Source: Clostridia bacterium
GTDB taxonomy: Bacteria > Bacillota > Clostridia > JAQVDB01
Reading direction: 5' to 3'
DNA length: 42,383 nt
Assembly (NCBI GenBank): GCA_028698525.1
Contig: JAQVDB010000011.1
Span: 1-42,383 of the forward strand
In this document: piece after piece, positions 15,628-42,350 of the stretch
How the letters are laid out: each line of letters starts with the position of its first letter
Numbering within the stretch: the stretch's first letter is position 1
Made by a program: the position numbers and the translations under genes
Notes under the pieces: model-generated
What the model was told of the DNA's origin: nothing
What the model saw: the letters and a program-made list of their open reading frames with translations, nothing else
The model's database searches: none

Positions 15628-15703
15628 GACCCATTAGCTCAGGCGGTAGAGCACTTGACTTTTAATCAAGGTGTCCGGCGTTCGAGTCGCCGATGGGTCA
15701 CCA
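15628..15703 (+). tRNA. tRNA-Lys(UUU)
   Basis: The acceptor stem GACCCAT pairs with ATGGGTC. The anticodon loop CTTTTAA carries TTT inside the stem TTGA/TCAA, the T-loop is TTCGAGT, and CCA is encoded. It is first of four tRNAs in the operon. Confidence 0.96.
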
Positions 15704-15709
15704 TATTGT

Positions 15710-15784
15710 GGCCCCTTGGTCAAGTGGTTAAGACATCGCCCTTTCACGGCGGTATCAGGGGTTCGAGTCCCCTAGGGGTCACCA
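15710..15784 (+). tRNA. tRNA-Glu(UUC)
   Basis: The acceptor GGCCCCT pairs with AGGGGTC (one G-U). The anticodon TTC sits in the loop CTTTCAC between CGCC and GGCG, the T-arm is GGGGTTCGAGTCCCC, and CCA is encoded. Confidence 0.96.
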
Positions 15785-15793
15785 TTATAAAAT

Positions 15794-15870
15794 GGCCCGG
15801 TAGTTCAGTTGGTTAGAATGCCAGCCTGTCACGCTGGAGGTCGAGGGTTCGAGTCCCTTCCGGGTCGCCA
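15794..15870 (+). tRNA. tRNA-Asp(GUC)
   Basis: The acceptor GGCCCGG pairs with CCGGGTC and the discriminator is G. The anticodon GTC lies between CCAGC and GCTGG, the T-arm is AGGGTTCGAGTCCCT, and CCA is encoded. Length 77. Confidence 0.96.
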
Positions 15871-15876
15871 TATAAT

Positions 15877-15952
15877 GCTGGTGTAGCTCAATCGGCAGAG
15901 CAGCTGATTTGTAATCAGCAGGTTGCGGGTTCAAGTCCCATCACCAGCTCCA
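15877..15952 (+). tRNA. tRNA-Thr(UGU)
   Basis: The acceptor GCTGGTG pairs with CACCAGC and the discriminator is T. The anticodon TGT lies between CTGAT and ATCAG, the T-loop is TTCAAGT, and CCA is encoded. It is the last tRNA before the terminator. Confidence 0.96.
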
Positions 15953-27497: not shown

Positions 27498-28268
27498 ATG
27501 TTTGCAATTGAGAGACTTAATAAAATTAAAGAAATATTATATAGAGATAAACGTGTAGATGTTCTTGAGTTGAGCAGACTTTTTTCGGTAACTGAAGTAA
27601 CTATCCGAAGGGATCTGGATAAACTTGAAAAAGAAGGATTTTTAATTAAAACATACGGAGGAGCTGTTCTTAACGAGAAAGTTTTAGGAATTCCCTTTGT
27701 ACCGGAATCGGATGATGATGCTTTAGAAGAAAAGAGGATGATAGGTAAGATTGCATCTCAAATGATTGAAGATGGGGAAGCGGTTTTTTTAAGTTCAGGA
27801 ACCACATGCCTTGAAATAGCTAGAAATATAAAAAGCAAGAGATTAACGGTAGTAACCAATGATCTGCTCATTGGTTATGAACTCAAGGATAGCATCGGTA
27901 TCAAGGTTATAGTTACAGGTGGGGATCTTATCCAATCTTCTAGTACGTTGGTAGGTTCATTTACACTTCAGGCGTTGAATTCGATTTATATCAACAAAGC
28001 TTTTATTGGGGTAAAAGGTGTTAATTTTGATTCGGGTTATACGGTAGATAGCTATGAGGAAGCAATGGTTATTCAAGGGATTAGGAAAATATCAAGTGAT
28101 ATAATTATTGTAGCCGATTATACCAAGTTCAATCGCACTGCTTTTGCTCGCCTTGGGGGATTAACAATGGCAAAAAAGATTATTACCAACAAGCAGGTGC
28201 CTTCCGCCTTTAAAAAGTTTTTCTTTGAAAATTCAATCAAAATTTATACTGCGTTTGAGTTTGAGTGA
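27498..28268 (+). CDS. DeoR/GlpR family sugar-responsive transcriptional repressor
   Basis: The 256-residue protein has an N-terminal DeoR-type helix-turn-helix (about 6-56; the recognition helix lies in SVTEVTIRRDLDKLEKEG) and a C-terminal sugar-phosphate-sensing domain with SSGTTCLEIA (about 94-103), TNDL and VTGGDL (about 137-142). The family represses sugar operons and releases DNA on binding a phosphorylated sugar. AAGGGG precedes the ATG. It is directly followed by sugar ABC transporter genes, and related decamer repeats flank both units, so it probably controls them. The inducer cannot be read from sequence. Confidence 0.9.
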   Translation: MFAIERLNKIKEILYRDKRVDVLELSRLFSVTEVTIRRDLDKLEKEGFLIKTYGGAVLNEKVLGIPFVPESDDDALEEKRMIGKIASQMIEDGEAVFLSSGTTCLEIARNIKSKRLTVVTNDLLIGYELKDSIGIKVIVTGGDLIQSSSTLVGSFTLQALNSIYINKAFIGVKGVNFDSGYTVDSYEEAMVIQGIRKISSDIIIVADYTKFNRTAFARLGGLTMAKKIITNKQVPSAFKKFFFENSIKIYTAFEFE

Positions 28269-28314
28269 TTTTGATTCATTAGTATCCAAACTTTGTTTAA
28301 GAGGGGGAAATAAA

Positions 28315-29817
28315 TTGGGCAGTTTTCTGGAAATGAAAAGTATAACAAAATTGTTTAATGACAATGTTGTCCTTAAAGATATAGATTTCGATGCAGACAG
28401 AGGCCAGGTTCATTCGATTGTGGGCGAAAACGGTGCAGGCAAATCTACATTGATGAAGATACTGGCAGGCTTGTATACCCCTGATGCTGGGGAAATATAT
28501 ATTGATGGTAAACAGGTTATTATAAACAATCCAGAAGATGCTCAAAGGCTAGGTATATCCATGATCTATCAGGAAATCAGACTTTTTCCAGATTTGAATG
28601 TTGCTGAAAACATTTTTATTAAAAGGGAACCTGTAAAAAATAAAAAATGGTTTAGACTGATTGACTGGGACAAGGTTTATACGGAAACAACTAAATATTT
28701 GGATTATTTCGATTTAAAAATAGACGCAAAGACATCTGTAAATACCTTAAGTATAGGACAGCAGAAATTTGTTGAGATTATACGGGCTTTGTCTCGAGAT
28801 GCCAAGATTATTATAATGGATGAACCTACTGCTGCTTTGACAGAGCAGGAAATTGAGGTGCTTTTTAATGTTATTCAAGATATGAAGAAATTAGGTATAG
28901 TTATTATTTATATATCTCACAGGTTGGAAGAGGTCAAGAGAATTGCGGATAAGGTTACTATTCTCAGGGATGGAGAATTAGTGGAAACCTGTGATAGAAA
29001 TAAAATTGATATCAGTCATATTGTAAAGCTTATGGTAGGGAAAAAGTTAGAGGATAGGTATCCAAAGCTGAAAATCAGATTGGGCAGACAATCGTTGGCA
29101 GTTAATAATCTATCTTTTGAGGGGAGAATAAGAAATATAAACTTTGATTTGAAAGAAGGAGAAATCCTTGGCATTACAGGCTTGAGCGGTTCAGGCAGGA
29201 GAACTTTAGCAAAAGTCATCTTTGGTATTAATAGACATTATCAAGGAGAAATATATTTAAATGGGAAAACCTTCAAAGATATGAACCCTCACTTAGCCAT
29301 TGAAAATGGGCTATGCTATGTAACAGGAATAGGAACTGATGAAGGGCTTATATTAGATGCGTATGTTTCAGAAAATATTACATTGACTAATTTAGAGCGA
29401 ATTTCAAGGATGGGATTGCTAAACAAAGATGAGGAAACAAATAAAGCTAGAGATTTGATAGAAAGACTTGAAATAGAAGCCCATGAACATGAAATCACAA
29501 ACAACTTAAGTGGGGGCAATCAGAAAAAGGTCATATTTGCAAAGTGGCTATTTACTAATGCGAAAGTTTTAATTATTGATGAGCCCACGGCAGGTATTGA
29601 CGTGGGTTCTAAAGTTGATATATATAATATTATCAATGAATTGGTATTATCAGGGGCTTCAGTTATAATCATTTCTTCTGATTTACCGGAAGTATTAGGT
29701 ATGTGTGACAGAATACTTGTTATGTATAATGGACAAATCCGCAAGGTATTTTCTGAAGATGAAGCTACACAGGAGAAAATAATATATTATGCGTCAGGTG
29801 GCAAAGATAACATATGA
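28315..29817 (+). CDS. Sugar ABC transporter ATP-binding protein, first copy (RbsA/MglA family)
   Basis: This 500-residue dual ATPase belongs to the ribose/galactose importer class. The N-terminal domain has Walker A GENGAGKST (about 39-47), signature LSIGQQ and Walker B IIIMDEPTAAL. The C-terminal domain has the degenerate Walker A SGSGRRT typical of the class, signature LSGGNQKK and Walker B LIIDEPTAGID. I chose TTG 28315 (GAGGGGGA seven bases upstream) rather than the longer frame that overlaps the deoR-type gene. It lies 46 bases after the regulator, but no permease follows. A 410-base gap and a second ATPase gene come next, so its partners are unclear. Confidence 0.88.
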   Translation: MGSFLEMKSITKLFNDNVVLKDIDFDADRGQVHSIVGENGAGKSTLMKILAGLYTPDAGEIYIDGKQVIINNPEDAQRLGISMIYQEIRLFPDLNVAENIFIKREPVKNKKWFRLIDWDKVYTETTKYLDYFDLKIDAKTSVNTLSIGQQKFVEIIRALSRDAKIIIMDEPTAALTEQEIEVLFNVIQDMKKLGIVIIYISHRLEEVKRIADKVTILRDGELVETCDRNKIDISHIVKLMVGKKLEDRYPKLKIRLGRQSLAVNNLSFEGRIRNINFDLKEGEILGITGLSGSGRRTLAKVIFGINRHYQGEIYLNGKTFKDMNPHLAIENGLCYVTGIGTDEGLILDAYVSENITLTNLERISRMGLLNKDEETNKARDLIERLEIEAHEHEITNNLSGGNQKKVIFAKWLFTNAKVLIIDEPTAGIDVGSKVDIYNIINELVLSGASVIIISSDLPEVLGMCDRILVMYNGQIRKVFSEDEATQEKIIYYASGGKDNI

Positions 29818-29970
29818 AAAAGTTATTATAAGTTTTAAAAATATATTCAGCAGTTAATACATTCGAATATTCCAGACAATTTCATTTCTTATGATATTAT
29901 GAATTTCTTCAAACATTTCAATATTGCTATAAAATTACGATACAACTTTTGATGATTTTAGATATCAGCA

Positions 29971-30000
29971 AAAGAACACAAACGAACATGAAAGAAAACA
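29971..30000 (+). promoter_or_regulatory. Putative DeoR operator, upstream copy
   Basis: GAACACAAAC and GAACATGAAA stand in tandem (29974-29993), followed by GAAAACA. They match the decamers at 27411-27430 and 30140-30169. The surrounding gap 29818-30227 holds no gene. Confidence 0.5.
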
Positions 30001-30108
30001 ATAAGAGGTTACACAAGTGGGAAATAGCGCTTGTGGAGTGCCTACGTATTATTTTTTATGGATAAAATAAAAAAATAAATCCTAAAAAATTTTCAAAAAG
30101 AAGGATAT

Positions 30109-30169
30109 TTTAAACAAGTGTCGAATATACTTAATAAAGGAACATAAACGAACACAAAGGAAAGAAATA
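30109..30169 (+). promoter_or_regulatory. Possible promoter and DeoR operator of the ABC operon
   Basis: TTTAAA (30109-30114) and TAATAA (30132-30137) are spaced 17 bases. Right after the -10 stand three tandem decamers: GAACATAAAC, GAACACAAAG and GAAAGAAATA (30140-30169). A repressor bound there would cover the transcription start. Confidence 0.5.
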
Positions 30170-30227
30170 AAAATGGATGTAAGGTTGATATTTTCTAATG
30201 ATAGCAAACTGAAGGAGGTCTGTGGAT

Positions 30228-31751
30228 TTGTCTGAAAATATACTTGAGCTAAAAGCGATTACAAAAACATTTCCAGGAGTCAAAGCATTAGACGATGTAA
30301 ACTTTGATTTAAAGTCCGGAGAGATTCATGCTTTAATGGGTGAAAATGGTGCAGGAAAGTCTACCTTTATAAAGATTATAACCGGAGTTCATCCCCAGGA
30401 TAAGGGAGAAATATATTTGGCCGGGGAAAAGGTTGATATGAAGAACCCAAACCAAGCAAAAGAGATGGGTATTGCAGCAATTTATCAGCATGTAACCTGT
30501 TATCCTGATTTGAGTGTTACGGAAAATATCTTTATGGGACATGAAAAGGTGAGTAAAATCTCAAAGAGGATTCTATGGGAGGAGATGCATTCGGAAGCAG
30601 AGAAGCTTATAAAGGATTTGGGAACGGACATTGACCCTAAAACCCAGATGGGGGCGCTGAGCGTGGCACAACAACAGATTGTTGAAATAGCTAAAGCTTT
30701 ATCTACAAATGCAAAAATTGTTATTATGGATGAGCCTACCGCTGCACTTACAAAGAGAGAAACTGAAGAGCTTTATCGAATTACCGAACAACTGAGAGAC
30801 AATGGTGTTTCCATAATTTTTATTTCCCACAGACTGGAGGATATGTATAGGTTGGCAGACAGAGTTACCGTATTGAGGGATGGGAAATATATCGGGACAT
30901 GGGAAGCAGATAAAATATCAACTCAGGAACTTATCGTTGCTATGGTGGGCAGGGAACTTACAGAGATGTTTCCACAAAAGGATACAAAAATAGGGGAGGA
31001 GCTTCTGCATATTGAGGGACTAGGCAAAACAGGGTATTTTGCTGATGTTTCATTTACTCTTCGAAAGGGTGAAATCCTTGGGTTAACAGGGTTGGTAGGT
31101 GCGGGGAGAACAGAAGTATGTCAATCAATTTTTGGCATCATGCCTCCTGACAAAGGTAAGATATATTTAGAGGGAAAAGAGATAAAAATCAGGAATCCTC
31201 TGGAAGCAATGGAACTAGGCATAGGATATTTGCCGGAAGATAGGCAAAAACAGGGTTTGATATTGGATTGGGAGATAGGAAGAAATATTACTTTACCTAC
31301 CCTAAACAAATTTTCAAATAAAGGGTGGATTGATGAGGATAAAGAGGCTGAAATCGCCAAGGCCTTTACTGAAAAGGTAGATGTTAGAACAGACAGTATT
31401 TTTAATTTGGCCAGCTCGTTATCCGGAGGAAATCAGCAGAAGGTTGTTATAGCAAAACTGTTGAATACTGACTTAAAGGTTATCATACTTGATGAAGCTA
31501 CCAAAGGTGTGGATGTAGGAGCCAAATATGCAGTATATGAAATAATGTGTAGTCTAGCTGAAAAGGGATATGGAATTATTATGGTTTCATCTGATATGCC
31601 GGAGGTATTGGGTATGAGCGATAGAATAGTTGTGATGCGGGAAGGTCGGGTTACAACCATTCTAAACAGGGAAGATGCCACACAGGAGGCAATTCTTGAA
31701 GCATCTATGGTATCAAAAGCTGAAGGAAGGACTCCTGTATCTGCAGTATAA
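30228..31751 (+). CDS. Rhamnose/AI-2-type sugar ABC transporter ATP-binding protein, second copy
   Basis: This 507-residue dual ATPase energises sugar import from the cytoplasmic face. Domain 1 has Walker A GENGAGKST (about 38-46), signature LSVAQQ and Walker B IVIMDEPTAAL. Domain 2 has GLVGAGRTE in place of Walker A, EDRQKQGL, signature LSGGNQQKV and VIILDEATKGVD. TTG 30228 sits nine bases after AAGGAGG. The GTG at 30222 is only three bases away from that site and is less likely. It heads an operon with two permeases and a binding protein, the gene set of RhaT-P-Q-S or LsrA-C-D-B systems. Confidence 0.9.
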   Translation: MSENILELKAITKTFPGVKALDDVNFDLKSGEIHALMGENGAGKSTFIKIITGVHPQDKGEIYLAGEKVDMKNPNQAKEMGIAAIYQHVTCYPDLSVTENIFMGHEKVSKISKRILWEEMHSEAEKLIKDLGTDIDPKTQMGALSVAQQQIVEIAKALSTNAKIVIMDEPTAALTKRETEELYRITEQLRDNGVSIIFISHRLEDMYRLADRVTVLRDGKYIGTWEADKISTQELIVAMVGRELTEMFPQKDTKIGEELLHIEGLGKTGYFADVSFTLRKGEILGLTGLVGAGRTEVCQSIFGIMPPDKGKIYLEGKEIKIRNPLEAMELGIGYLPEDRQKQGLILDWEIGRNITLPTLNKFSNKGWIDEDKEAEIAKAFTEKVDVRTDSIFNLASSLSGGNQQKVVIAKLLNTDLKVIILDEATKGVDVGAKYAVYEIMCSLAEKGYGIIMVSSDMPEVLGMSDRIVVMREGRVTTILNREDATQEAILEASMVSKAEGRTPVSAV

Positions 31752-31775
31752 AGTATGAGAAAAGGAGAAGCGTTT

Positions 31776-32783
31776 ATGACTGAAAAAGCTCTAGGGAAGA
31801 GATCAAGAATATCAAACAATGGAAAATTCAGAGAAATAGGACTTTTAGGGTTTATCATTCTAATTTCAATATTTGTACAACTTCGCAATCCAAAATTTCT
31901 TACATTAGGAAATATTAACGACATGACTAAAAACACGGCGATACTAAGTATTCTTGCAGTTGGAATGATGTTGGTTATAGTTACGAGAGGCATGGACCTT
32001 TCGATCGGTGCAACTTTAGCTTTATCAGGCATGATATCAGCCATGACTGTAAGTGCGAATCCTAGTTTGCATCCTGTATTTGCAATATTGTTAGGGATAT
32101 TGGTGGGAATTGTTTGCGGAACTATAGTAGGTTTTTTTGTATCAAAGGCAGGGGTTCTTCCTATCATAGCTTCACTTGGAATGATGAATGTATACAGAGG
32201 ATTGACCTATTTGGTAGGAGGAGGTAAGTGGGTGAGCGCACATCAAATGTCACCCAGCTTTAAAGGTATTGCAATCAGTTCCATATTAGGTATTAATACC
32301 TTAGTTTTTATAGCAATAATTATTTATATAGTTTTTTATTATTTTATCAATCATACAAGAACAGGCAGACAGATATATGCGGTGGGTAGTAATCCAGAGT
32401 CTGCTAAAATCAGTGGGATAAATGTTCAAAAGATATTATGGATGGTTTACATAATTATGGGAGGACTGGCCGGATTATCAGGGGTATTGTGGGTGTCAAA
32501 GTTTGCATCCGCTCAGGGAGATACAGCAGTAGGATATGAAATGAATGTTATAGCTGCCTGTGTATTGGGTGGAGTTAACATTGCCGGTGGATCAGGAAAA
32601 ATCTCTGGAATTATAATGGGATCGTTGTTAATCGGTATCTTAAACAATGCATTACCCCTCATAAATGTATCGCCATTCTGGCATCAGGCAATTCAAGGTT
32701 TGATAATTTTAATTGCGGTAATTGTCAATGCTCTTGTAAAGAGGCGTGTGGAAAGAACTAATCTCATGAGGAGGAAAATCTGA
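31776..32783 (+). CDS. Sugar ABC transporter permease 1 (RbsC/RhaP/LsrC family)
   Basis: The 335-residue permease has about ten transmembrane helices. Family motifs are RGMDLSIGATLALSGM (about 72-87) and the cytoplasmic coupling region GRQIYAVGSNPESAKISGI (about 201-219), which contacts the ATPase, followed by GGVNIAGGSGKISG. ATG 31776 has AAAAGGAG nine bases upstream. The ORF can extend to ATG 31755. It lies 24 bases after the ATPase gene and three bases before permease 2. Two unlike permeases in one operon are typical of rhamnose and AI-2 importers, whereas ribose systems use one. Confidence 0.9.
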   Translation: MTEKALGKRSRISNNGKFREIGLLGFIILISIFVQLRNPKFLTLGNINDMTKNTAILSILAVGMMLVIVTRGMDLSIGATLALSGMISAMTVSANPSLHPVFAILLGILVGIVCGTIVGFFVSKAGVLPIIASLGMMNVYRGLTYLVGGGKWVSAHQMSPSFKGIAISSILGINTLVFIAIIIYIVFYYFINHTRTGRQIYAVGSNPESAKISGINVQKILWMVYIIMGGLAGLSGVLWVSKFASAQGDTAVGYEMNVIAACVLGGVNIAGGSGKISGIIMGSLLIGILNNALPLINVSPFWHQAIQGLIILIAVIVNALVKRRVERTNLMRRKI

Positions 32784-32786
32784 GCT

Positions 32787-33782
32787 ATGGAACAGAGAAA
32801 CATTATTGCCAAGAGGGAATTTAATCTGAAAAGTTTTTTCTTTCAGTGGGAATGGATGTTGGTACTGATATTGATTGTTATAAATATTGTAAACTCATCC
32901 ATATCCTCTCACTATTTGAATTTTAGTGGATTGATGGATGCCACCATGACTTTTCTCGACAAGGCTTTCATCGTTTTACCTATGGCTTTTATCATAATTT
33001 TAGGAGATATCGATATCTCCGTTGCATCCACTGTTGCGCTGTCTTCAGTAATTATGGCGGTATCATACAATGCCGGTTTACCCATGGGGATGGCTATGGT
33101 GCTCTGCCTTATAGTGGGGACGGTTTGTGGATTAATAAACGGATTGTTGATAGTTAAATTTAAGGAGTTGTCAGCAGTCATCGTTACACTTTCTACAATG
33201 ACAATATATCGCGGAATTGCTTATATAATACTTGAAGACCAAGCAGCAGGCAAATTCCCCCAGTGGTTTAGCTATTTAGGCTGGGGATATGTTGGAAGTA
33301 TACCGTTTATTTTGATTGTTTTTGCAGTGTTTGCAGTTATTTTTGGCTTGCTGCTCCACAAGACAACCTTTGGCAGACGTGTATATGCGATAGGCAATAA
33401 CCCTGTAGCAAGCAGATTTTCCGGAGTGGAGGTTGATAAGATAAAGGTGATAATTTTCACAGCTGCAGGTTTTATGTCAGGTGTAACAGCTCTTTTCCTC
33501 ACTTCAAAAATGGGAAGTACAAGGCCCAATGTGGCAATTGGTTATGAATTAGATGTAATAGCCATGGTTGTTCTCGGCGGTGTAAGCACAGCAGGGGGAA
33601 AAGGTAGAATTATAGGAACTGTGATCTCTATCTTTCTTATCGGTCTTTTACGTTATGGTCTCGGCCTTATCAATGTGCCTTCCCAGGTATTGTTGATAAT
33701 CATAGGTCTATTGCTGGTATTTGCGGTAATGATTTCTGATTTAAACGTAAATACAGTGAAAGCAGGAAAGATAAAAAGATAA
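32787..33782 (+). CDS. Sugar ABC transporter permease 2 (RhaQ/LsrD family)
   Basis: This second permease of 331 residues has about ten membrane helices. It shows GDIDISVASTVALSSVIM (about 72-89) and the ATPase-coupling segment GRRVYAIGNNPVASRFSGV (about 195-213), then GGVSTAGGKGRIIGTV. It is paralogous to permease 1 but clearly diverged, so the pair likely forms a heterodimer. The start is ATG, three bases after the previous stop, with GAGGAGG about 15 bases before it. Confidence 0.9.
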   Translation: MEQRNIIAKREFNLKSFFFQWEWMLVLILIVINIVNSSISSHYLNFSGLMDATMTFLDKAFIVLPMAFIIILGDIDISVASTVALSSVIMAVSYNAGLPMGMAMVLCLIVGTVCGLINGLLIVKFKELSAVIVTLSTMTIYRGIAYIILEDQAAGKFPQWFSYLGWGYVGSIPFILIVFAVFAVIFGLLLHKTTFGRRVYAIGNNPVASRFSGVEVDKIKVIIFTAAGFMSGVTALFLTSKMGSTRPNVAIGYELDVIAMVVLGGVSTAGGKGRIIGTVISIFLIGLLRYGLGLINVPSQVLLIIIGLLLVFAVMISDLNVNTVKAGKIKR

Positions 33783-33850
33783 TAAATAGCTTTGCATATA
33801 ATAGTCTAAAGACTGTTTATATTTAAATTAAAAATAAGGAGGAAAGATTA

Positions 33851-34954
33851 ATGAAGAAAGTATTAGCATTAATTATTTCACTTGCATTGGTTATGTCTTT
33901 ATTGGTTGGATGCGGTGGAGGAGGTACTGAAGATGTTTCGGAACCGGAAGAAACACCGGAAGTTGAAGATGCATCGAAAACCGATGATGAGCCAGAGCCG
34001 GAAGAAGAACCAGATAGTGGGGAAGGAAAACAATATGCCATCATTGTAAAGAGCACAGGTAATCCCTTTATGGAAAAGATGGCAGATGGGTTTAAGGAAG
34101 CTGTAAGTGAGCTCGGTGGGGAAACTATTGTGAAGGCACCAGATCAGCCAACAGCTGAAGCTCAGATTCAGATGATTGAAGAGCTTATTGCTCAAAAAGT
34201 TGATGGGATAGCAATATCAGCAAATGACCCTGATGCTTTGCAGCCTGCTCTTCAAAAAGCCATGAATGACGGAATCAATGTTGTTTCACTTGATTCTGCA
34301 GTAAATGCGGAGAGTCGTACAACTCATATACAGCAAGCGGATCCTGAAAGAATTGGACGTGTTCAGGTACAGGCAATTCATGAGATGATTGACGGTGAAG
34401 GTGAGATTGCTATTTTAAGCGCTACTTCACAAGCAACCAACCAGAACGAATGGATTGAATGGATGAAGGAAGAATTAGAAGATCCTAAATATGAGAATAT
34501 TGAGCTTGTAAAGATTGCCTATGGTGACGACCTTAGAGATAAAAGTGTTTCAGAGACAGAAGGCTTGTTACAATCATATCCAAATCTAAAGGGAATAATT
34601 TCACCTACAACTGTAGGTATAGCGGCAGCAGCAAAAGTCCTTACGGATAAAGGTCTTGAAGGAAAGGTACAACTTACAGGTCTCGGCTTGCCAAGTGAAA
34701 TGGCTGAGTATATTGAAAATGGTGTGTGTCAGTGGATGTATCTGTGGAATCCTATTGATTTAGGATATCTAGCAGGATGTGCTATTGATGCCCTTGCAAA
34801 AGGGGAGATTAGCGGAGAGGCTGGAGATACATTTAGTGCTGGTAGACTAGGAGATAGAGAAGTTGTTGAAGTAGGAGACGGGACTGAAATTATGCTAGGT
34901 GACCCATTTAAATTTGATATTGACAATATAGGAGAATGGAAAGACGTATATTAA
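33851..34954 (+). CDS. Sugar-binding lipoprotein of ABC transporter (RhaS/LsrB-like)
   Basis: This 367-residue lipoprotein captures the sugar outside the membrane. A signal peptide (1-20) ends in lipobox LVGC (C21). An acidic, Glu/Pro-rich linker (about 28-55) follows, then a type-1 periplasmic-binding fold. The stretches SPTTVGIAAAAKVLTDKG and LTGLGLPSEMAEYIENG with LWNPIDLGYLAG resemble rhamnose-binding RhaS and AI-2-binding LsrB proteins. The exact ligand is not certain. AAGGAGG precedes the ATG. It is the last gene of the transporter operon. Confidence 0.87.
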   Translation: MKKVLALIISLALVMSLLVGCGGGGTEDVSEPEETPEVEDASKTDDEPEPEEEPDSGEGKQYAIIVKSTGNPFMEKMADGFKEAVSELGGETIVKAPDQPTAEAQIQMIEELIAQKVDGIAISANDPDALQPALQKAMNDGINVVSLDSAVNAESRTTHIQQADPERIGRVQVQAIHEMIDGEGEIAILSATSQATNQNEWIEWMKEELEDPKYENIELVKIAYGDDLRDKSVSETEGLLQSYPNLKGIISPTTVGIAAAAKVLTDKGLEGKVQLTGLGLPSEMAEYIENGVCQWMYLWNPIDLGYLAGCAIDALAKGEISGEAGDTFSAGRLGDREVVEVGDGTEIMLGDPFKFDIDNIGEWKDVY

Positions 34955-35423: not shown

Positions 35424-36599
35424 ATGAGGAGAAACATGCCTATTATTCCTACAGAAGAATATCGTCAGCGGTGGAAAAAGGTTCAAAAAATGATGGATGA
35501 AAAAAACTTGGATTTACTATTAGCCTATGCAGATGATCACGCAGTTTTTGGGCCTGCTTATTCCAGATGGCTGGCAGATTTTCCAGTACACTTTGAACCG
35601 GTATGCATCTTAATGAGTAAGGAGAAAGATCCGGTATTGCTATGTGGGCCGGAGAGTGACCGTTATGCATTACAAGTTGGTCAAATACATGATGTGCGTA
35701 TACTAGAAGAGTTTACCCATCCTAACGAAGATTACCTCCACACAAAGATTCAAAGTTTGACCCAAGTGGCTAGCGAGATGGTGGACATTGATAAAATAAA
35801 GAGAATCGGTTTTGCAGGTCAAAGTTTATTGGGGGCAGATGCTTACCTAAGATTTCAGAAAGCTTTTCCGAATTCAGAATGGGTAGATATTGATTATGAT
35901 ATGTCTATGCTCAGAGCTAGGAAAACAGAGGCTGAAATAGGAGTGATCCGATATGCTTATCAAATAGCCCAAAGGGGTATGATGACAGCCATAGATAGCA
36001 TTTGTGAGGGTGTTGTAGAACGGGAAGTGGCAGCAAATATCGAATATACCATGAGAAAAGCAGGATCGGAAGGGACGGGTATTGACACTATGGTAGGTTC
36101 AGGTGAAAATTCTCGACATGAGATTGCAAGGACTACTTTCAAACAAATTCAAAAAGGAGATGTTGTGCAAGTTACCATAGCACCTCGATACGAAGGATAC
36201 CATGGTGCTATTGCCAGGCCGATATTTGTAGGGCAACCAAGTGATGAGGCCAAACATGCATTGGAAGCTGCCTGTCGTGCTCAGCAAGCTTGTTATAAAG
36301 CACTCCGTCCGGGGATAGAAGGAAGAGAGGTAGAAGCTATTGGAAGGGAAATAATGGACAAGGCAGGCTTAGGTAAATACTTCCTATACTCAGGAATACA
36401 TAGTATTGGAATAATGGAATTCGAACCGCCTATATTCGGGCCTACACAGAAGGAAGTTCTAGAAAAAGATATGATAGTTTCGGTGGATATTCCTATATTC
36501 GGAGCACCTTGGGGAGGATTCCGTTTGGAGGATGGATATTTAATTACTGATAAAGGTGCAGAGCGGTTGAACTATGTTGATTATTGGGTTATAAAATAA
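35424..36599 (+). CDS. Creatinase/prolidase-fold (M24-like) protein with two metal-ligand Asp lost
   Basis: This 391-residue pita-bread-fold protein has the creatinase N-terminal domain (about 10-165) and the M24 catalytic domain (about 172-385). In M24 peptidases two Asp, one His and two Glu bind two metals. Here the two Asp positions are T251 (VTIAP) and A262 (GYHGAIARP). H326, E334 and E369 are kept, as is H232, which corresponds to the conserved His before the first Asp. Creatinase is a known metal-free member of the fold, so a non-peptidase hydrolase is plausible. GAAAGGGG precedes the ATG. It stands alone between the ABC operon and the glycosidase-nitrilase operon and has its own terminator. 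Confidence 0.82.
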   Translation: MRRNMPIIPTEEYRQRWKKVQKMMDEKNLDLLLAYADDHAVFGPAYSRWLADFPVHFEPVCILMSKEKDPVLLCGPESDRYALQVGQIHDVRILEEFTHPNEDYLHTKIQSLTQVASEMVDIDKIKRIGFAGQSLLGADAYLRFQKAFPNSEWVDIDYDMSMLRARKTEAEIGVIRYAYQIAQRGMMTAIDSICEGVVEREVAANIEYTMRKAGSEGTGIDTMVGSGENSRHEIARTTFKQIQKGDVVQVTIAPRYEGYHGAIARPIFVGQPSDEAKHALEAACRAQQACYKALRPGIEGREVEAIGREIMDKAGLGKYFLYSGIHSIGIMEFEPPIFGPTQKEVLEKDMIVSVDIPIFGAPWGGFRLEDGYLITDKGAERLNYVDYWVIK

Positions 36600-36664: not shown

Positions 36665-36705
36665 AAAAGCGTCAGGTTTTTATATTTAAGATCTGACGCT
36701 TTTTG
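36665..36705 (+). terminator. Terminator after the creatinase-like gene
   Basis: AAAAGCGTCAG (36665-36675) pairs with CTGACGCTTTT (36693-36703), and the 3' arm ends in a T run. No gene is seen in 36600-36825. Confidence 0.85.
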
Positions 36706-36825
36706 TGCGAGTTAATTGTTTTGTACTTGATTTTCTATTCAAAAAAATTTCAATTAAAGGCAGGAAAGAGTAAAAACATGGCGAATTTGTTAAGTATATT
36801 CAAAAACTAAAAAGGAGGGGGAGGA

Positions 36826-38637
36826 TTGAATAAAATTATCACAAGACCAACAGAAATCGGTAAAAATGAACAAGTGCTTTATGCAGGGAATCATTATATC
36901 AGTTTGCCTGAGATAGATCCAACTACAGGTATGGCTAAAAGCTTGAATATAGCATCTTTGCACAATAAAGCATTGGTGGAATTAGAAGGAAAGCAAGGGC
37001 TTTTTATTCCCTCCTTTTATTTAGGAGATAAAAAATTAAAGGTCAAAAAAGCATCCTTTAATAAAGAGGATTTTTATATCCCTTTGCTAGAGCTTCATCT
37101 TGAACAAGATATCCAAGTCCGTGTCAGAATATATACTGACCTTCAAGAAAAAGGAATTATATATGATTTTCAAAGCAGTCAGCCTGTGGATACACAAATT
37201 GTGTGTCAAATATCCAATATGAATTTTTTACGTTTTAATTCCCATCATGAGAAATTTGAGAAAAGGTTCAAAGTGGATTCTTGGTTAAACAATCCTCTAA
37301 TAGAAATAGATAATCCTAAAGCATCTTTAGCTCTCGCTTTTGGCGGACAGGAGGATTTTTCATATAAATATAGCCGGGAACAGGGAAGTCTTTTGTTAAA
37401 AACAAGGTGTCAGCAGAGAAATGCTATATATATAGCTGTCAATTCTGATGCTGATGGAGCTTCTACTACTCTTATACATCTTAAGAGAAAAGGTTATCAG
37501 ATGATATATGAGCAGTGGCGGGAATGGCTGCAGAATAAATCAATCTCCTACCCACAAGATAGTTATTTAGAGACCTTGATGAATGAAAATTTGTTCTTTA
37601 ATTATTTTTTTGCAATAGCAAAAGATATGCAAAGCGACCAATATTTTGCCTTGACATCTAGAAGTCCACGGTACTATGTTTCAGGTGCATTTTGGGAAAG
37701 GGACAGCTTTTTGTGGTCTTTTCCGGCTATAAAGCTGGTAGATGCTAATCTTCATCAAAAAATAATGAGGGAAATGATACTGGTGCATAGCAAGAATGCT
37801 GGTGACCATGCTCATTATATCGATGGTACGGTGTTGTATCCAGGGTTTGAATTGGATCAGGCTGCCAGCTATTTTATTTTGTTAAAAGATCTCAAGGAAG
37901 AATATATAGACCAAACTCTTATCTGGGCATTGGAAGAGGTATGGAATCGAATTGAGCAGGAATACGATAGTGATACTCAGCTATATAAAACATTCTTGCT
38001 TCCTTCTGATGATCCGGCCTATCATCCCTTTGTCACTATCGATAATATTATCCTGTGGCGGGGGCTGCATTATCTGAAACAGGTTTATGAAAATTTGAGA
38101 CTGTTCCACAAGACAATAGTGATTGAACAGCGGATACGGGGAGTTGAGCAGGGGATAAAAAAGCACCTGATTCAAGAAGTACAGGGGAAGAAAATGTTTG
38201 TGTGGTCAAGCGATGGTAAGGGAAATGTACGTCTATATAATGACCCTCCGGGGAATTTAGGTTTATTATATTTTTATGGGTTTGTAGACCAAAATGATGA
38301 GGTTTTTCAAAACACTATCCAATATTATTATTCTTCCGACTATCATTACTTTTTTGAACAAGCTCCTATTCAGGAATTAGCTTGTGATCATCATCCTAAT
38401 ACCCCTTCAGGGCTGGGTCTGTGCGGTAGTATTCTCAATCCGTTAAAAAGAAAGGAGGCTCTTGGGTGGTTGAAAAATGCAGTTATGGATCATGGGCTGT
38501 TGGCTGAAAGCTTTGATGTCCAAACAGGGGAGGCAAAGACTGGAGTAGGGTTTGCAACGGGTTCAGGCTACTTGGCCTTTGCCCTATATCATGTCTTATT
38601 GGAGGAGGGGAAAGGGCATGAAAGTTGCAGTGGTTGA
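36826..38637 (+). CDS. Six-hairpin glycosidase-like protein, unassigned family
   Basis: The 603-residue cytoplasmic protein (no signal peptide) appears to have an N-terminal beta-sandwich (about 1-225) and a C-terminal alpha/alpha six-hairpin barrel (about 245-595). The latter has FWERDSFLW at 289-297, YPGFELDQA near 338-346, RLYNDPPGNL near 469-478 and NTPSGLGLCGS near 525-535. The acidic motifs recall GH125, GH63 and GH15-type glycosidases, but I cannot assign a family or name the catalytic acid. The start is TTG with AAGGAGG seven bases before. It heads an operon whose next gene overlaps its end by 20 bases, so expression is coupled to two nitrilase-fold proteins. Confidence 0.65.
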   Translation: MNKIITRPTEIGKNEQVLYAGNHYISLPEIDPTTGMAKSLNIASLHNKALVELEGKQGLFIPSFYLGDKKLKVKKASFNKEDFYIPLLELHLEQDIQVRVRIYTDLQEKGIIYDFQSSQPVDTQIVCQISNMNFLRFNSHHEKFEKRFKVDSWLNNPLIEIDNPKASLALAFGGQEDFSYKYSREQGSLLLKTRCQQRNAIYIAVNSDADGASTTLIHLKRKGYQMIYEQWREWLQNKSISYPQDSYLETLMNENLFFNYFFAIAKDMQSDQYFALTSRSPRYYVSGAFWERDSFLWSFPAIKLVDANLHQKIMREMILVHSKNAGDHAHYIDGTVLYPGFELDQAASYFILLKDLKEEYIDQTLIWALEEVWNRIEQEYDSDTQLYKTFLLPSDDPAYHPFVTIDNIILWRGLHYLKQVYENLRLFHKTIVIEQRIRGVEQGIKKHLIQEVQGKKMFVWSSDGKGNVRLYNDPPGNLGLLYFYGFVDQNDEVFQNTIQYYYSSDYHYFFEQAPIQELACDHHPNTPSGLGLCGSILNPLKRKEALGWLKNAVMDHGLLAESFDVQTGEAKTGVGFATGSGYLAFALYHVLLEEGKGHESCSG

Positions 38638-39475
38638 GTTCTCCGATATTGTTACCCGAAATATTAGTAATACCAAAGAGTGGATTAAAACAATAGAAGA
38701 AAATATTTATAAGGCAGCAGAGAAAGAGGCTGTTTTAGTGGCTTTGCCGGGTTTTACCGGATGTTTTTATCAATGGTTGCAGATGAACGAACCCAGTCTC
38801 TGCCAGGTGATAAGTAGCCTATCTCATCAACAATTTGTTCAAGCCATGATGGAGCTGTCCGCCAAGTACAAAGTGCTGTTGTGTTCCGGGAGCTATTGGG
38901 AAAGGGTGGGTGATGATGTTTTTCATACAGCTTGCCTGATGTATCAGGGGAAAATATTGTTGAAACAGCGGCAGATATATCTATCAAGGTGGGAAAGAGC
39001 GCTATCTTTCAAAGGCGGTAAGGAAGTGTATATAAGAGATATAAATGGATGGAAAGTGGCAATTATACTGGCTACAGATGTTTTTTATCCCCAGGTAGCC
39101 CGGAGGGCTGCGCTATTAGGAGCTGATGTTGTTATTTCTCCGGTGGGTTTTGTGGGAGAGATAAACCCTTGGGTACAGGTAAGCGGAGTGTGGCAGACCA
39201 CTCAGCTGAATCATTATTTTGCCCTTGAAAGTGCCTTCAATGGAAGATTAGGAGAAAAAACGTTATGGGGAGAAAGCATTATTCATGCCCCATTGCCTAT
39301 GACTTATAAAGAGCAAGGGATCCTAGAGCGGAGTCATGGCAGCAAACAATTGATTGTGTCTAGGCTAGACAATGAGGCTAGAAGACGAGCAACAAAAGAA
39401 TTCAACGTGCTAGCTCAGTTAAACCCAGACTTTTATGATGAAATACAAGGGCTAGGAGGGGCGAAAAATGGTTGA
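38618..39475 (+). CDS. Nitrilase-fold protein lacking the catalytic Glu-Lys-Cys triad
   Basis: This 285-residue carbon-nitrogen hydrolase-fold protein starts MKVAVVEFSD. Compared with the next gene, all three catalytic positions are changed: Glu to G45 (ALPGF), Lys to Q119 (QRQIYL) and Cys to A152 (ILATD). The frame is intact, the ribosome binding site GGAGGAGGGG is strong and surrounding fold positions are kept, so this looks like a maintained non-catalytic partner and not a decaying gene. It starts inside the glycosidase-like gene and overlaps the next by eight bases. It could form a hetero-oligomer with its active neighbour, which is inference. Confidence 0.75.
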   Translation: MKVAVVEFSDIVTRNISNTKEWIKTIEENIYKAAEKEAVLVALPGFTGCFYQWLQMNEPSLCQVISSLSHQQFVQAMMELSAKYKVLLCSGSYWERVGDDVFHTACLMYQGKILLKQRQIYLSRWERALSFKGGKEVYIRDINGWKVAIILATDVFYPQVARRAALLGADVVISPVGFVGEINPWVQVSGVWQTTQLNHYFALESAFNGRLGEKTLWGESIIHAPLPMTYKEQGILERSHGSKQLIVSRLDNEARRRATKEFNVLAQLNPDFYDEIQGLGGAKNG

Positions 39476-40529
39476 AACTTTTGTAAAACGTATATTTGGC
39501 AGAAAGATATGTTTAAGCAGAATTGAAAACCATATCGCCAGGTTGCCTGCTGTGGAAACAAGCACAGAATGGGATACAGTCCCGAGTCTAGTTAAGATCA
39601 GCACGGTACAAAGAGGAATAAAGCTAGTAAAAAACATAGAGGATTATATAGATATAATTAATAGCTTTATTGAGGAGGCATACAGACAGGATAGTCGGCT
39701 TGTTGTTTTTCCTGAATATAATTTTTTCGATCTTTTTGGGTTTATTCCCGGTTTTACCCTGATAAATAGATATCTGAATGATAAAGGGAAGTCGGCAAAA
39801 TCTAATGATCAAGGAGCAGGGGATGTTTCAAAGTTGGCCCCTTTTTTTAAAGGGATAGCTGTATCGATAGGAAAGGGAATAGATAGGATATTTTCCTTGT
39901 TGGCCCGAAGATATGCTATTTATATATATACAGGTACTTTTATATTGCCCGGAGAAAAAGGATTATATAATGTAGGTTTTCTCTATAGTCCTAAAGGCGA
40001 ATGCATAGGAAGCCAGCGGAAGCTTCATTTGACAGATTTTGAAGAACAGATAGGTTTGATGAGAGGTAATACATTGAAGGTTTATGACCTTCCAATAGGT
40101 AGAATTGCTTTCCCTGTGTGTATGGATGCAAGCTATTTTGAAACTTTTTATCGGGCGGAAGAGCTAAATGCAGAGCTGGTGATTTTACCTATTGCAAATA
40201 TGGAGGAGTACAATTTATGGAAGGCTATTAGAGGGATATGGCCTCGTGTGCAGGAATCTTATATCTATGGAGCCAAATCTTCTTTAAATGGTTGGATTGC
40301 AGGAATGCATTTTACAGGGAAGGCAGGTATTTTCGCTCCTCTATCCTTATCCAACAAAGGGGATGGAGCAATAGCTTTATCTCCTCATTATGAGGGGAAT
40401 CAATTGATTACAGCTACGGTAAATTATCAAAGATTAAAGCAACAGAGAGAAAAGGCAGAATACTTTGGTGACCGCAATTCGGATTTTGAGAAAGATTTCG
40501 TTCGAAGAACTTATTTTATTGGAGGATAA
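39468..40529 (+). CDS. Carbon-nitrogen hydrolase (nitrilase superfamily), intact triad
   Basis: This 353-residue member of the nitrilase superfamily cleaves C-N bonds in amides, nitriles or related compounds. The triad is E83 (VFPEYN), K185 (QRKLHL) and C218 (PVCMD). An N-terminal extension of about 40 residues precedes the usual first strand, and an insert (about 90-140) with a hydrophobic part sits before the second strand. No signal peptide is seen. AGGAGGGG lies six bases before the ATG, and the start overlaps the triad-less paralog. The GPH transporter follows two bases after its stop. The substrate is unknown. Confidence 0.85.
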   Translation: MVETFVKRIFGRKICLSRIENHIARLPAVETSTEWDTVPSLVKISTVQRGIKLVKNIEDYIDIINSFIEEAYRQDSRLVVFPEYNFFDLFGFIPGFTLINRYLNDKGKSAKSNDQGAGDVSKLAPFFKGIAVSIGKGIDRIFSLLARRYAIYIYTGTFILPGEKGLYNVGFLYSPKGECIGSQRKLHLTDFEEQIGLMRGNTLKVYDLPIGRIAFPVCMDASYFETFYRAEELNAELVILPIANMEEYNLWKAIRGIWPRVQESYIYGAKSSLNGWIAGMHFTGKAGIFAPLSLSNKGDGAIALSPHYEGNQLITATVNYQRLKQQREKAEYFGDRNSDFEKDFVRRTYFIGG

Positions 40530-40531
40530 AA

Positions 40532-41857
40532 ATGAAGAAGAACAGGAAGATAGTATTATTTATGTATGCCATGGGGTACTTTGGTATATCTATATTTACT
40601 CAGACTACCGTCAAATGGTATCAGTATTTCTATACTCCCCCGGAAACCAACGTAAGCGGTTTGAAGGTTCTAATTCCTTTGAGCCTTATAGGCATTACCA
40701 TGATTGTGGCTCGAATATTTGATGGTTTGGCAGACCCTGTTGTTGCCTATCTTTCAGATAATTGTAAAAGCAAAAGGGGAAGGCGTATTCCTTTTATTTT
40801 ATTTGGATCTGTTCCTCTCGCTATAACTTTTATCATGATTTGGTTTCCGCCTGTGGCAGGAGAGTCTATATGGAATTTCATATATCTGACAATAGTATTG
40901 ATCTTATTCTTTATATTTTTTACTGTGGTGGTGGGACCGTATCTTGCGTTGATTGGAGAAGTATCCAAGACCAAAGAAGAGCGGATTAAACTTACTACTA
41001 TGCAAGGTATTACTCAGGTATTAGGTGTAATGGTAGCTGAAGCAGGTTCTGGGCTTATAATACAAAAGACTAATTACAGGATAATGGGTATTACATTGGG
41101 ACTTATTGCGTTAGCCACTATCCTGTTAACCCCTCTGTTTGTAAAGGAAGAACAAACAGAGTACCCTGAACAGCAGGCTAATATATTCTCTTCTATCAAA
41201 ATGACTATGATAAATAGACATTTTGTTATGTATCTAATTTCGTATCTAATGATATGGTTTGGAATCAATACACTAACCATTGCAATGCCTTATATTACGG
41301 AAATTCTTTTAAGAAAGACTGCAGAAACATCAGGGTTTTTGATTGCCGGTGCTTTTGTAGTGGCTATTGTAGCAAGTCCGTTTATTCCTAAACTTACTCT
41401 TAAATGGGGTAAAAAGAAGGTGATGTTATTTGCATCTGTTGCATTGGCTATTATATTATGCAGTATGTTCTTTTTTGGGACTGCCTTTACAGGATGGGTT
41501 CCTACTTTCATTATTTTTTTGGCGGGAATACCTCTTTCGGTTACCTTTATAGTGCCTAATGCTATGGTGGCAGATATTGCCGAATGGGATGGATTGATTA
41601 CAGGACAATGGAGAGAGGGGATGTATTTTGGAGCCCAGGGACTGGTAATAAAGATTGTCATAGGATTTTCTTCATTTATTACGCCGTTGATGTTCAAGGC
41701 CTTCGGATATAGCTATGAGAACCCGCTTGGATTAAGACTTATAGGACCATTAGCTGGTATAGTAGTATTGTTGGGTGTTATGTTTTTGAGACATTATGAT
41801 TTATCGGAAGATCAACTAGAGCAGAGGCGAGAGCGACATAAACAGGTTAAACTTTAG
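40532..41857 (+). CDS. GPH-family (MelB-like) sugar:cation symporter
   Basis: The glycoside-pentoside-hexuronide:cation symporter family imports sugars or glycosides with Na+ or H+. The 441 residues have about twelve transmembrane helices and the family signature ARIFDGLADPVVAYLSD, then GRRIPF (about 56-85). GGAGG lies six bases before the ATG. It is last in the glycosidase-nitrilase operon and probably brings in the compound these enzymes process. The motif set does not reveal the substrate. The C-terminal tail is charged (QLEQRRERHKQ). Confidence 0.88.
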   Translation: MKKNRKIVLFMYAMGYFGISIFTQTTVKWYQYFYTPPETNVSGLKVLIPLSLIGITMIVARIFDGLADPVVAYLSDNCKSKRGRRIPFILFGSVPLAITFIMIWFPPVAGESIWNFIYLTIVLILFFIFFTVVVGPYLALIGEVSKTKEERIKLTTMQGITQVLGVMVAEAGSGLIIQKTNYRIMGITLGLIALATILLTPLFVKEEQTEYPEQQANIFSSIKMTMINRHFVMYLISYLMIWFGINTLTIAMPYITEILLRKTAETSGFLIAGAFVVAIVASPFIPKLTLKWGKKKVMLFASVALAIILCSMFFFGTAFTGWVPTFIIFLAGIPLSVTFIVPNAMVADIAEWDGLITGQWREGMYFGAQGLVIKIVIGFSSFITPLMFKAFGYSYENPLGLRLIGPLAGIVVLLGVMFLRHYDLSEDQLEQRRERHKQVKL

Positions 41858-41966
41858 TTTATAAAGTTTGAGCAATAATTTAATTTTATTTCAAATAGCT
41901 AATTTAAAAAATCGAATATAATGATATAATATGATATATAGATTAAATATCAAAGGCGGGGGAAAG

Positions 41967-42350
41967 ATGAATAATCAAGATAAGGTTTTGAGCCTGCTGG
42001 AACAATTACAAAACAATATAAGTATAGTGCAAAAAGACATAAAAGGATTGAAGACCAGTCAAACAGAGATGCAAGAGGGCATAAAAGGATTGAAGACCAG
42101 TCAAGTTGAGATGCAGGAAGGTATAAAAGGATTGAAGATCAGTCAAGTTGAGATGCAAGAAGACATAGACGATATAAAGTCAACTGTTCATGGCATTGAA
42201 GATCAATTCAGAGATCTGGAATCAAGGAATGCAAATAGACATATGGATATCATCGCCCAAATAAAAGAGATGAAATCTGATATATCCAGGATAGAAATAA
42301 ATACTGCTGAAAACTGGCGAGATATTGCAAAGCTTAAATCAATTAAGTGA
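41967..42350 (+). CDS. Small coiled-coil protein with 14-residue repeats
   Basis: This 127-residue hydrophilic protein is predicted to be almost fully helical. After MNNQDKVLSLLEQLQNN it has three tandem copies of a 14-residue unit (GIKGLKTSQVEMQE type, two heptads), then more heptads to the end. It resembles uncharacterised coiled-coil proteins of Clostridia that may form bundles or fibres. No enzymatic motif, signal or membrane segment is present. ATG 41967 has GGGGG about five bases upstream. The in-frame ORF upstream (from ATA/ATG at 41931) has no binding site. TATAAT boxes occur at 41917 and 41925. Confidence 0.7.
   Translation: MNNQDKVLSLLEQLQNNISIVQKDIKGLKTSQTEMQEGIKGLKTSQVEMQEGIKGLKISQVEMQEDIDDIKSTVHGIEDQFRDLESRNANRHMDIIAQIKEMKSDISRIEINTAENWRDIAKLKSIK
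42036..42161 (+). repeat. 42-bp tandem repeat, three copies
   Basis: Three head-to-tail 42-bp units (42036-42077, 42078-42119, 42120-42161) differ at only a few bases each. They encode the 14-residue repeats of the coiled-coil protein. Being in frame, copy number could change by slippage without a frameshift. Confidence 0.9.

Follow-up and report, generated by a model that had tools for sequence, protein, structure and literature searches.

A conserved pair of active and inactive nitrilase-type proteins encoded with a GH125-like glycosidase and a GPH-type symporter

Gene content of the operon and its surroundings

Four closely packed genes, all on the forward strand, occupy positions 36826–41857 of the stretch of DNA that was analysed (42,383 nucleotides, referred to as the window). 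The first one (36826–38637, +) encodes a GH125-like glycosidase of 603 aa (Pfam PF06824, 6e-13) and has a TTG start behind AAAGGAGGGGGAGGA, with a strong ribosomal binding site, AAGGAGGGGGAGG (36812–36824, +), immediately 5' of the TTG at 36826; the start is supported by homologues with the same first residue. Its end overlaps by 20 bp with nit1 (38618–39475, +), which has an ATG at 38618 behind GGAGGAGGGG and encodes a pseudo-nitrilase of 285 aa, and nit1 in turn overlaps by 8 bp with nit2 (39468–40529, +), encoding a C-N hydrolase of 353 aa. The Pfam domain PF00795 (CN_hydrolase) is matched twice in the operon, in nit1 and nit2 (2e-14 and 2e-13). After a gap of 2 bp follows a gene for a GPH-type (MFS_2) symporter of 441 aa (40532–41857, +; Pfam PF13347, 3e-57). 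The shared direction, the two overlaps and the short gap bear out the four-gene operon proposed in the initial annotation. None of the four products reaches the cut-off of an NCBIfam equivalog model.

Upstream of the operon, a hairpin followed by a T-run is found at 36668–36704 (+), AGCGTCAG...CTGACGCT TTTTT, which folds at -19.6 kcal/mol; its loop is longer than 8, outside the range of the terminator scan, and it was identified by folding. It is likely a Rho-independent terminator between the operon and a creatinase-like M24 gene located at 35424–36599, on the 5' side of the hairpin. This gene and the rhamnose-type ABC operon preceding it had been suggested to belong to the same regulon, but they were rejected as members of the module, since the terminator-like hairpin lies between and they are not seen again at any other module locus compared. 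The rhamnose-type ABC operon (28225–34954) is unusual in its duplicated ATPase gene: two genes for double-ABC ATPases of the sugar type follow one another (28225–29817 and 30222–31751), and after them come one permease pair and a binding protein of the RhaS type (406 bits, cut-off 342). Directly 3' of the symporter gene, 41931–42350 encodes a small protein of the coiled-coil type whose tandem repeats (GLKTSQTEMQEGI) are nearly identical. The Rfam scan of the window detected four tRNAs only, clustered at 15628–15949, and thus gives no clue to a riboswitch.

Catalytic residues of the nitrilase pair and the glycosidase

About 80 neighbourhoods were fetched and searched with profiles of all four genes, and 76 of them contain a member of the nit2 family. 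The Glu-Lys-Cys triad of the nitrilase superfamily is intact in nit2 of the window (E83, K185 and C218, together with E192), and in the family it is complete in 75 of 76 proteins (Glu in 75/75, Lys in 76/76, Cys in 75/76, and the second Glu in 76/76). In nit1 of the window all three residues are gone, Glu being replaced by Gly, Lys by Gln and Cys by Ala/Thr, and the protein is classed as a pseudoenzyme; the assignment of one dead and one active nitrilase made from the window alone is supported. At the fetched loci, the Lys position of nit1 is lost in 72 of 72 proteins (Gln in 70, Ala in 2), Cys is lost in 63 of 72, and Glu in 65 of the 70 sequences that have a residue at this position. In 26 diverse nit1 proteins this Gln (residue 118, the count starting after Met) never varies, and PF00795 is present in 26/26 members of the nit1 family. 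The consistent loss of Lys in nit1 and the retention of the triad in nit2 indicate an ancient enzyme/pseudoenzyme pair. In a phylogenetic tree, nit1 (72/72) and nit2 (76/76) form one clade each, with support of 0.80 and 0.84, indicating that the dead form probably arose once. The pairwise distances of nit1 and nit2 are correlated with r = 0.85, and those of nit1 and nit2 with the glycosidase with r = 0.64–0.65, permutation maxima being below 0.2 in both comparisons.

Neither nitrilase-type protein can be placed in a known family at the equivalog level; the best scores to the NCBIfam C-N hydrolase equivalogs are 49.7 and 40.8 bits against 500, and no cut-off is reached. A plasmid search returned distant nitrilases only, with identities no higher than about 32% for the matches listed, and a search of viral contigs gave no match. 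The nit2 protein of the window carries an N-terminal extension and an insertion N-terminal to residue 140. An AlphaFold model of nit2, made from a single sequence, has a pLDDT of 36 and is too weak for use.

The glycosidase consists of an extra N-terminal domain of about 240 aa followed by a complete GH125-type catalytic domain, with the acid D395, the base E561, a WxRDS motif at 290–294, and Gly573 at the position of GH125 Arg405. Comparison by hhalign with five canonical GH125 proteins taken from the genome sample gives a probability of 99.7% and an E-value of 7e-27 over the whole domain (query columns 259–609 to template 30–428), and the glycosidase profile also matches solved GH125 structures. 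PF06824 is found in 22/22 family members. The catalytic acid and base of GH125 (PMC9425025), Asp220 and Glu393 in CpGH125, have equivalents in 40 of 41 family members, whereas all 40 aligned members have Gly at the Arg405 position, and the protein is therefore designated GH125-like and not GH125. The fold of the glycosidase is the one inexact point of the initial annotation, which had left it open; it is GH125-like. An AlphaFold model from two sequences (pLDDT 45, Foldseek matches with TM about 0.3) is too weak for use; in this low-confidence model the extra N-terminal residues appear as beta strands. The kinship to GH125 only suggests that the substrate could be an alpha-mannoside or another alpha-hexoside.

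Conservation and distribution of the module

The gene nit1 is located directly upstream of nit2, on the same strand, in all 72 testable loci, the other four of the 76 being cut by a contig end. A GH125-like gene is present within about 8 kb of nit2 in 42 of the 76 loci and a GPH-type gene near nit2 in 25. The complete order glycosidase-nit1-nit2-symporter recurs, for example in L052, L054, L055, L056, L060, L062, L063, L081 and L109. Convergent glycosidase and symporter genes occur in L059, L065, L066 and L076, and in L085 the symporter comes first and the glycosidase last. In five genomes nit1 and nit2 are fused into a single open frame (L089, L093, L095, L102 and L113), and in L107 nit2 is fused in the same way to the glycosidase, giving a protein of 1,078 aa in which Pfam detects both domains. 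Other importers can be found nearby, namely a different MFS gene in L058 and L103 and ABC importers in L142 and L150. The constant core is the nitrilase pair, to which the initial annotation gave too little weight, with the glycosidase linked strongly though not always, and the symporter is replaceable. No further neighbour family is common to most of the fetched neighbourhoods, indicating that the module is self-contained, and in the outgroup, ten loci of other nitrilases (L122–L131), a GH125-like gene is absent. The locus L012 was considered as a case in which the glycosidase has no nitrilases next to it, but this reading was dropped: the 6.3-kb contig stops right after an MFS gene, the one that precedes nit1 in the related locus L058.

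Several other genes are found at some of the loci. A gene for a PIG-L family de-N-acetylase sits between nit2 and the glycosidase in L111, L112, L114, L118, L119 and L121, from two families, and a PIG-L-like motif is present at the protein start of 10063–10791 in L149, beside the unlinked glycosidase of genome G429. An Amidohydro_2 gene recurs near or beside the GH125-like gene (L068 8610–9548, gene 4 of L103, L071, L142 1956–2897, and L144 13520–14539). Divergent genes for LysR-type regulators, which are candidate regulators, are located upstream of the module in L056, L057, L064, L069 and L082, and in L026 a gene with an AdoMet decarboxylase domain (PF02675; 7473–8294) lies 120 bp 3' of nit2.

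The nit2 and glycosidase profiles were also used to scan 398 genomes sampled across one phylum. Full-length relatives of nit2 are found in 71 genomes, with a few more in the class, and the glycosidase (E <1e-60) in 60, both being present in 52 (odds ratio 109, p 2e-40). The conserved co-occurrence predicted from the window is thereby confirmed in neighbourhood and genome searches alike. The initial annotation had named as refuting evidence that the four genes be found together in no other genome, and with 52 of the 60 glycosidase-bearing genomes having nit2 this condition clearly does not hold. At the family level nit2 is present in 36, the glycosidase in 33 and both in 27 (odds ratio about 47, p 1e-15). 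Shared ancestry could be a part-source of the co-occurrence, although the association holds between families, and its recurrence across the phylum indicates that it is not due to chance. Several genomes, for example G298, G411, G429 and G458, carry nit2 and an unlinked glycosidase, showing that linkage alone is not the cause. In nineteen genomes nit2 is present and no glycosidase was detected; the reverse case comprises eight genomes by profile, another count giving about 6. Broken assemblies or divergent copies account for some of these, and in G506, which has the glycosidase only by profile, nit1 is located at a contig end. In G613 the nit pair is degenerate and a nitrilase with an intact triad and a signal-like N-terminus, apparently exported, adjoins the glycosidase, and in G667 the same exported nitrilase is found beside the glycosidase and the pair is absent (L142 10426–11514 and L152 2324–3418). 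In these two genomes only, another nitrilase looks to have replaced the pair, as if the same substrate required C-N cleavage.

A possible pathway for a glycoside with a C-N bond

The fusions, the coupling of the genes and their co-conservation suggest a heteromer of nit1 and nit2. In the pathway that we propose, a small glycoside with an amide, carbamoyl or nitrile group would enter the cell through the GPH symporter, whose place a different importer would take in other genomes. The C-N bond would be hydrolysed by nit2, for which nit1 would be an indispensable subunit without catalysis of its own, and the GH125-like enzyme would cleave the glycoside with inversion, before or after the C-N hydrolysis. 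The two activities would thus act on one molecule, in either order and for a catabolic purpose. This reading draws on what is directly observed in the genes and their coupling, that is the adjacency of nit1 and nit2 in 72/72 loci, the fusions, the co-occurrence, the pattern of catalytic residues kept and lost, the distance correlations and the recurring importers. The suggestion of the initial annotation, that a glycoside carrying a C-N bond (amide, nitrile or other) would be taken up and degraded, is plausible, and we hold the chances that the four genes constitute a self-contained pathway of this kind to be even. Mannosylglyceramide and cyanogenic glucosides were weighed as substrates, with direct evidence for neither.

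The pair could instead be a housekeeping amidase, active in metabolite repair like the deaminated-glutathione amidase or in nitrogen salvage, the glycosidase and symporter often lying next to it in saccharolytic bacteria but having a function of their own. The pair is more constant than the other module genes, and in L025, L028, L064, L069, L072, L082 and others it has neither a glycosidase nor a symporter nearby, but this explanation is unlikely in view of the association with the glycosidase at both genome and family level, the nit2-glycosidase fusion, and the great distance to the known amidase equivalog models (best about 50 bits, with cut-offs of several hundred). The nitrilase superfamily also includes acyltransferases such as Lnt, and a heteromer that is synthetic, N-acylating or otherwise forming an amide and thereby decorating a sugar or glycoside that the glycosidase trims or recycles, would be consistent with the N-terminal extension and insertion of nit2, which are missing in simple nitrilases. 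The pair is however accompanied by importers and a hydrolase, and the neighbours include no recurring gene for a glycosyltransferase or an acyl donor, making a synthetic role improbable. In some lineages N-acylated sugars are hinted at by the PIG-L genes that separate nit2 from the glycosidase at six loci, and by the PIG-L-like protein start next to the unlinked glycosidase in G429. The pathway might then degrade a glycoside whose amino sugar is N-acylated, of the thiol type or an antibiotic-like pseudodisaccharide; the pair would take off the acyl group, and the alpha-glycoside left over would be split by the glycosidase. Most loci, including the window, have no PIG-L gene, and we regard such a substrate as improbable.

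Known systems resemble the proposed pathway for a C-N-bearing glycoside in parts. With the GH125 exo-alpha-1,6-mannosidases (CpGH125, SpGH125 and BT3781) the module glycosidases share the profile match over the whole domain, the WxRDS and E(L/I)D motifs and the catalytic acid and base, kept in 40/41, but they differ in the Gly for Arg405, in the extra N-terminal domain, and in the remaining sequence, which is about 22% alike. The C-N hydrolase domain and the Glu-Lys-Cys residues of nit2 are those of the nitrilase superfamily (PH0642, the P. abyssi nitrilase, NIT4 and N-carbamoylputrescine amidase), from whose amidases and nitrilases it differs by always having a dead partner with the Lys replaced, nearly always by Gln, and by scoring below every equivalog cut-off. 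A precedent is known from sorghum, where the paralogues NIT4A and NIT4B2 are proposed to form a heteromeric nitrilase in the turnover of the cyanogenic glucoside dhurrin (PMC5154151); those are plant branch-1 nitrilases without a GH125 or GPH partner. The symporter resembles the GPH cation symporters (MelB, YagG and the glucuronide transporter), matching Pfam MFS_2 with 195 bits and above its threshold, but it reaches only 145 bits to TIGR00792, below the NCBIfam cut-off of 231.

A literature search gave no description of this gene combination, nor any paper on a pseudoenzyme in the nitrilase superfamily; the search covered open-access papers, and the absence is therefore provisional, but the module is apparently described here for the first time. 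Tentatively, and with slightly more doubt than confidence, the pair may be a new bacterial class of heteromeric C-N hydrolase, composed of an active subunit and an anciently dead one with Gln for Lys, which together with the GH125-like glycosidase would constitute a phylum-wide pathway for an undescribed natural glyco-amide or glyco-nitrile. Pseudoenzymes of the nitrilase superfamily are little discussed, and a dead/active pair that is conserved in some 36 families within a single phylum, and is sometimes fused, offers a clean system for the role of a dead nitrilase subunit. That the pair is closely tied to an importer and a GH125-like glycosidase implies a common natural substrate.
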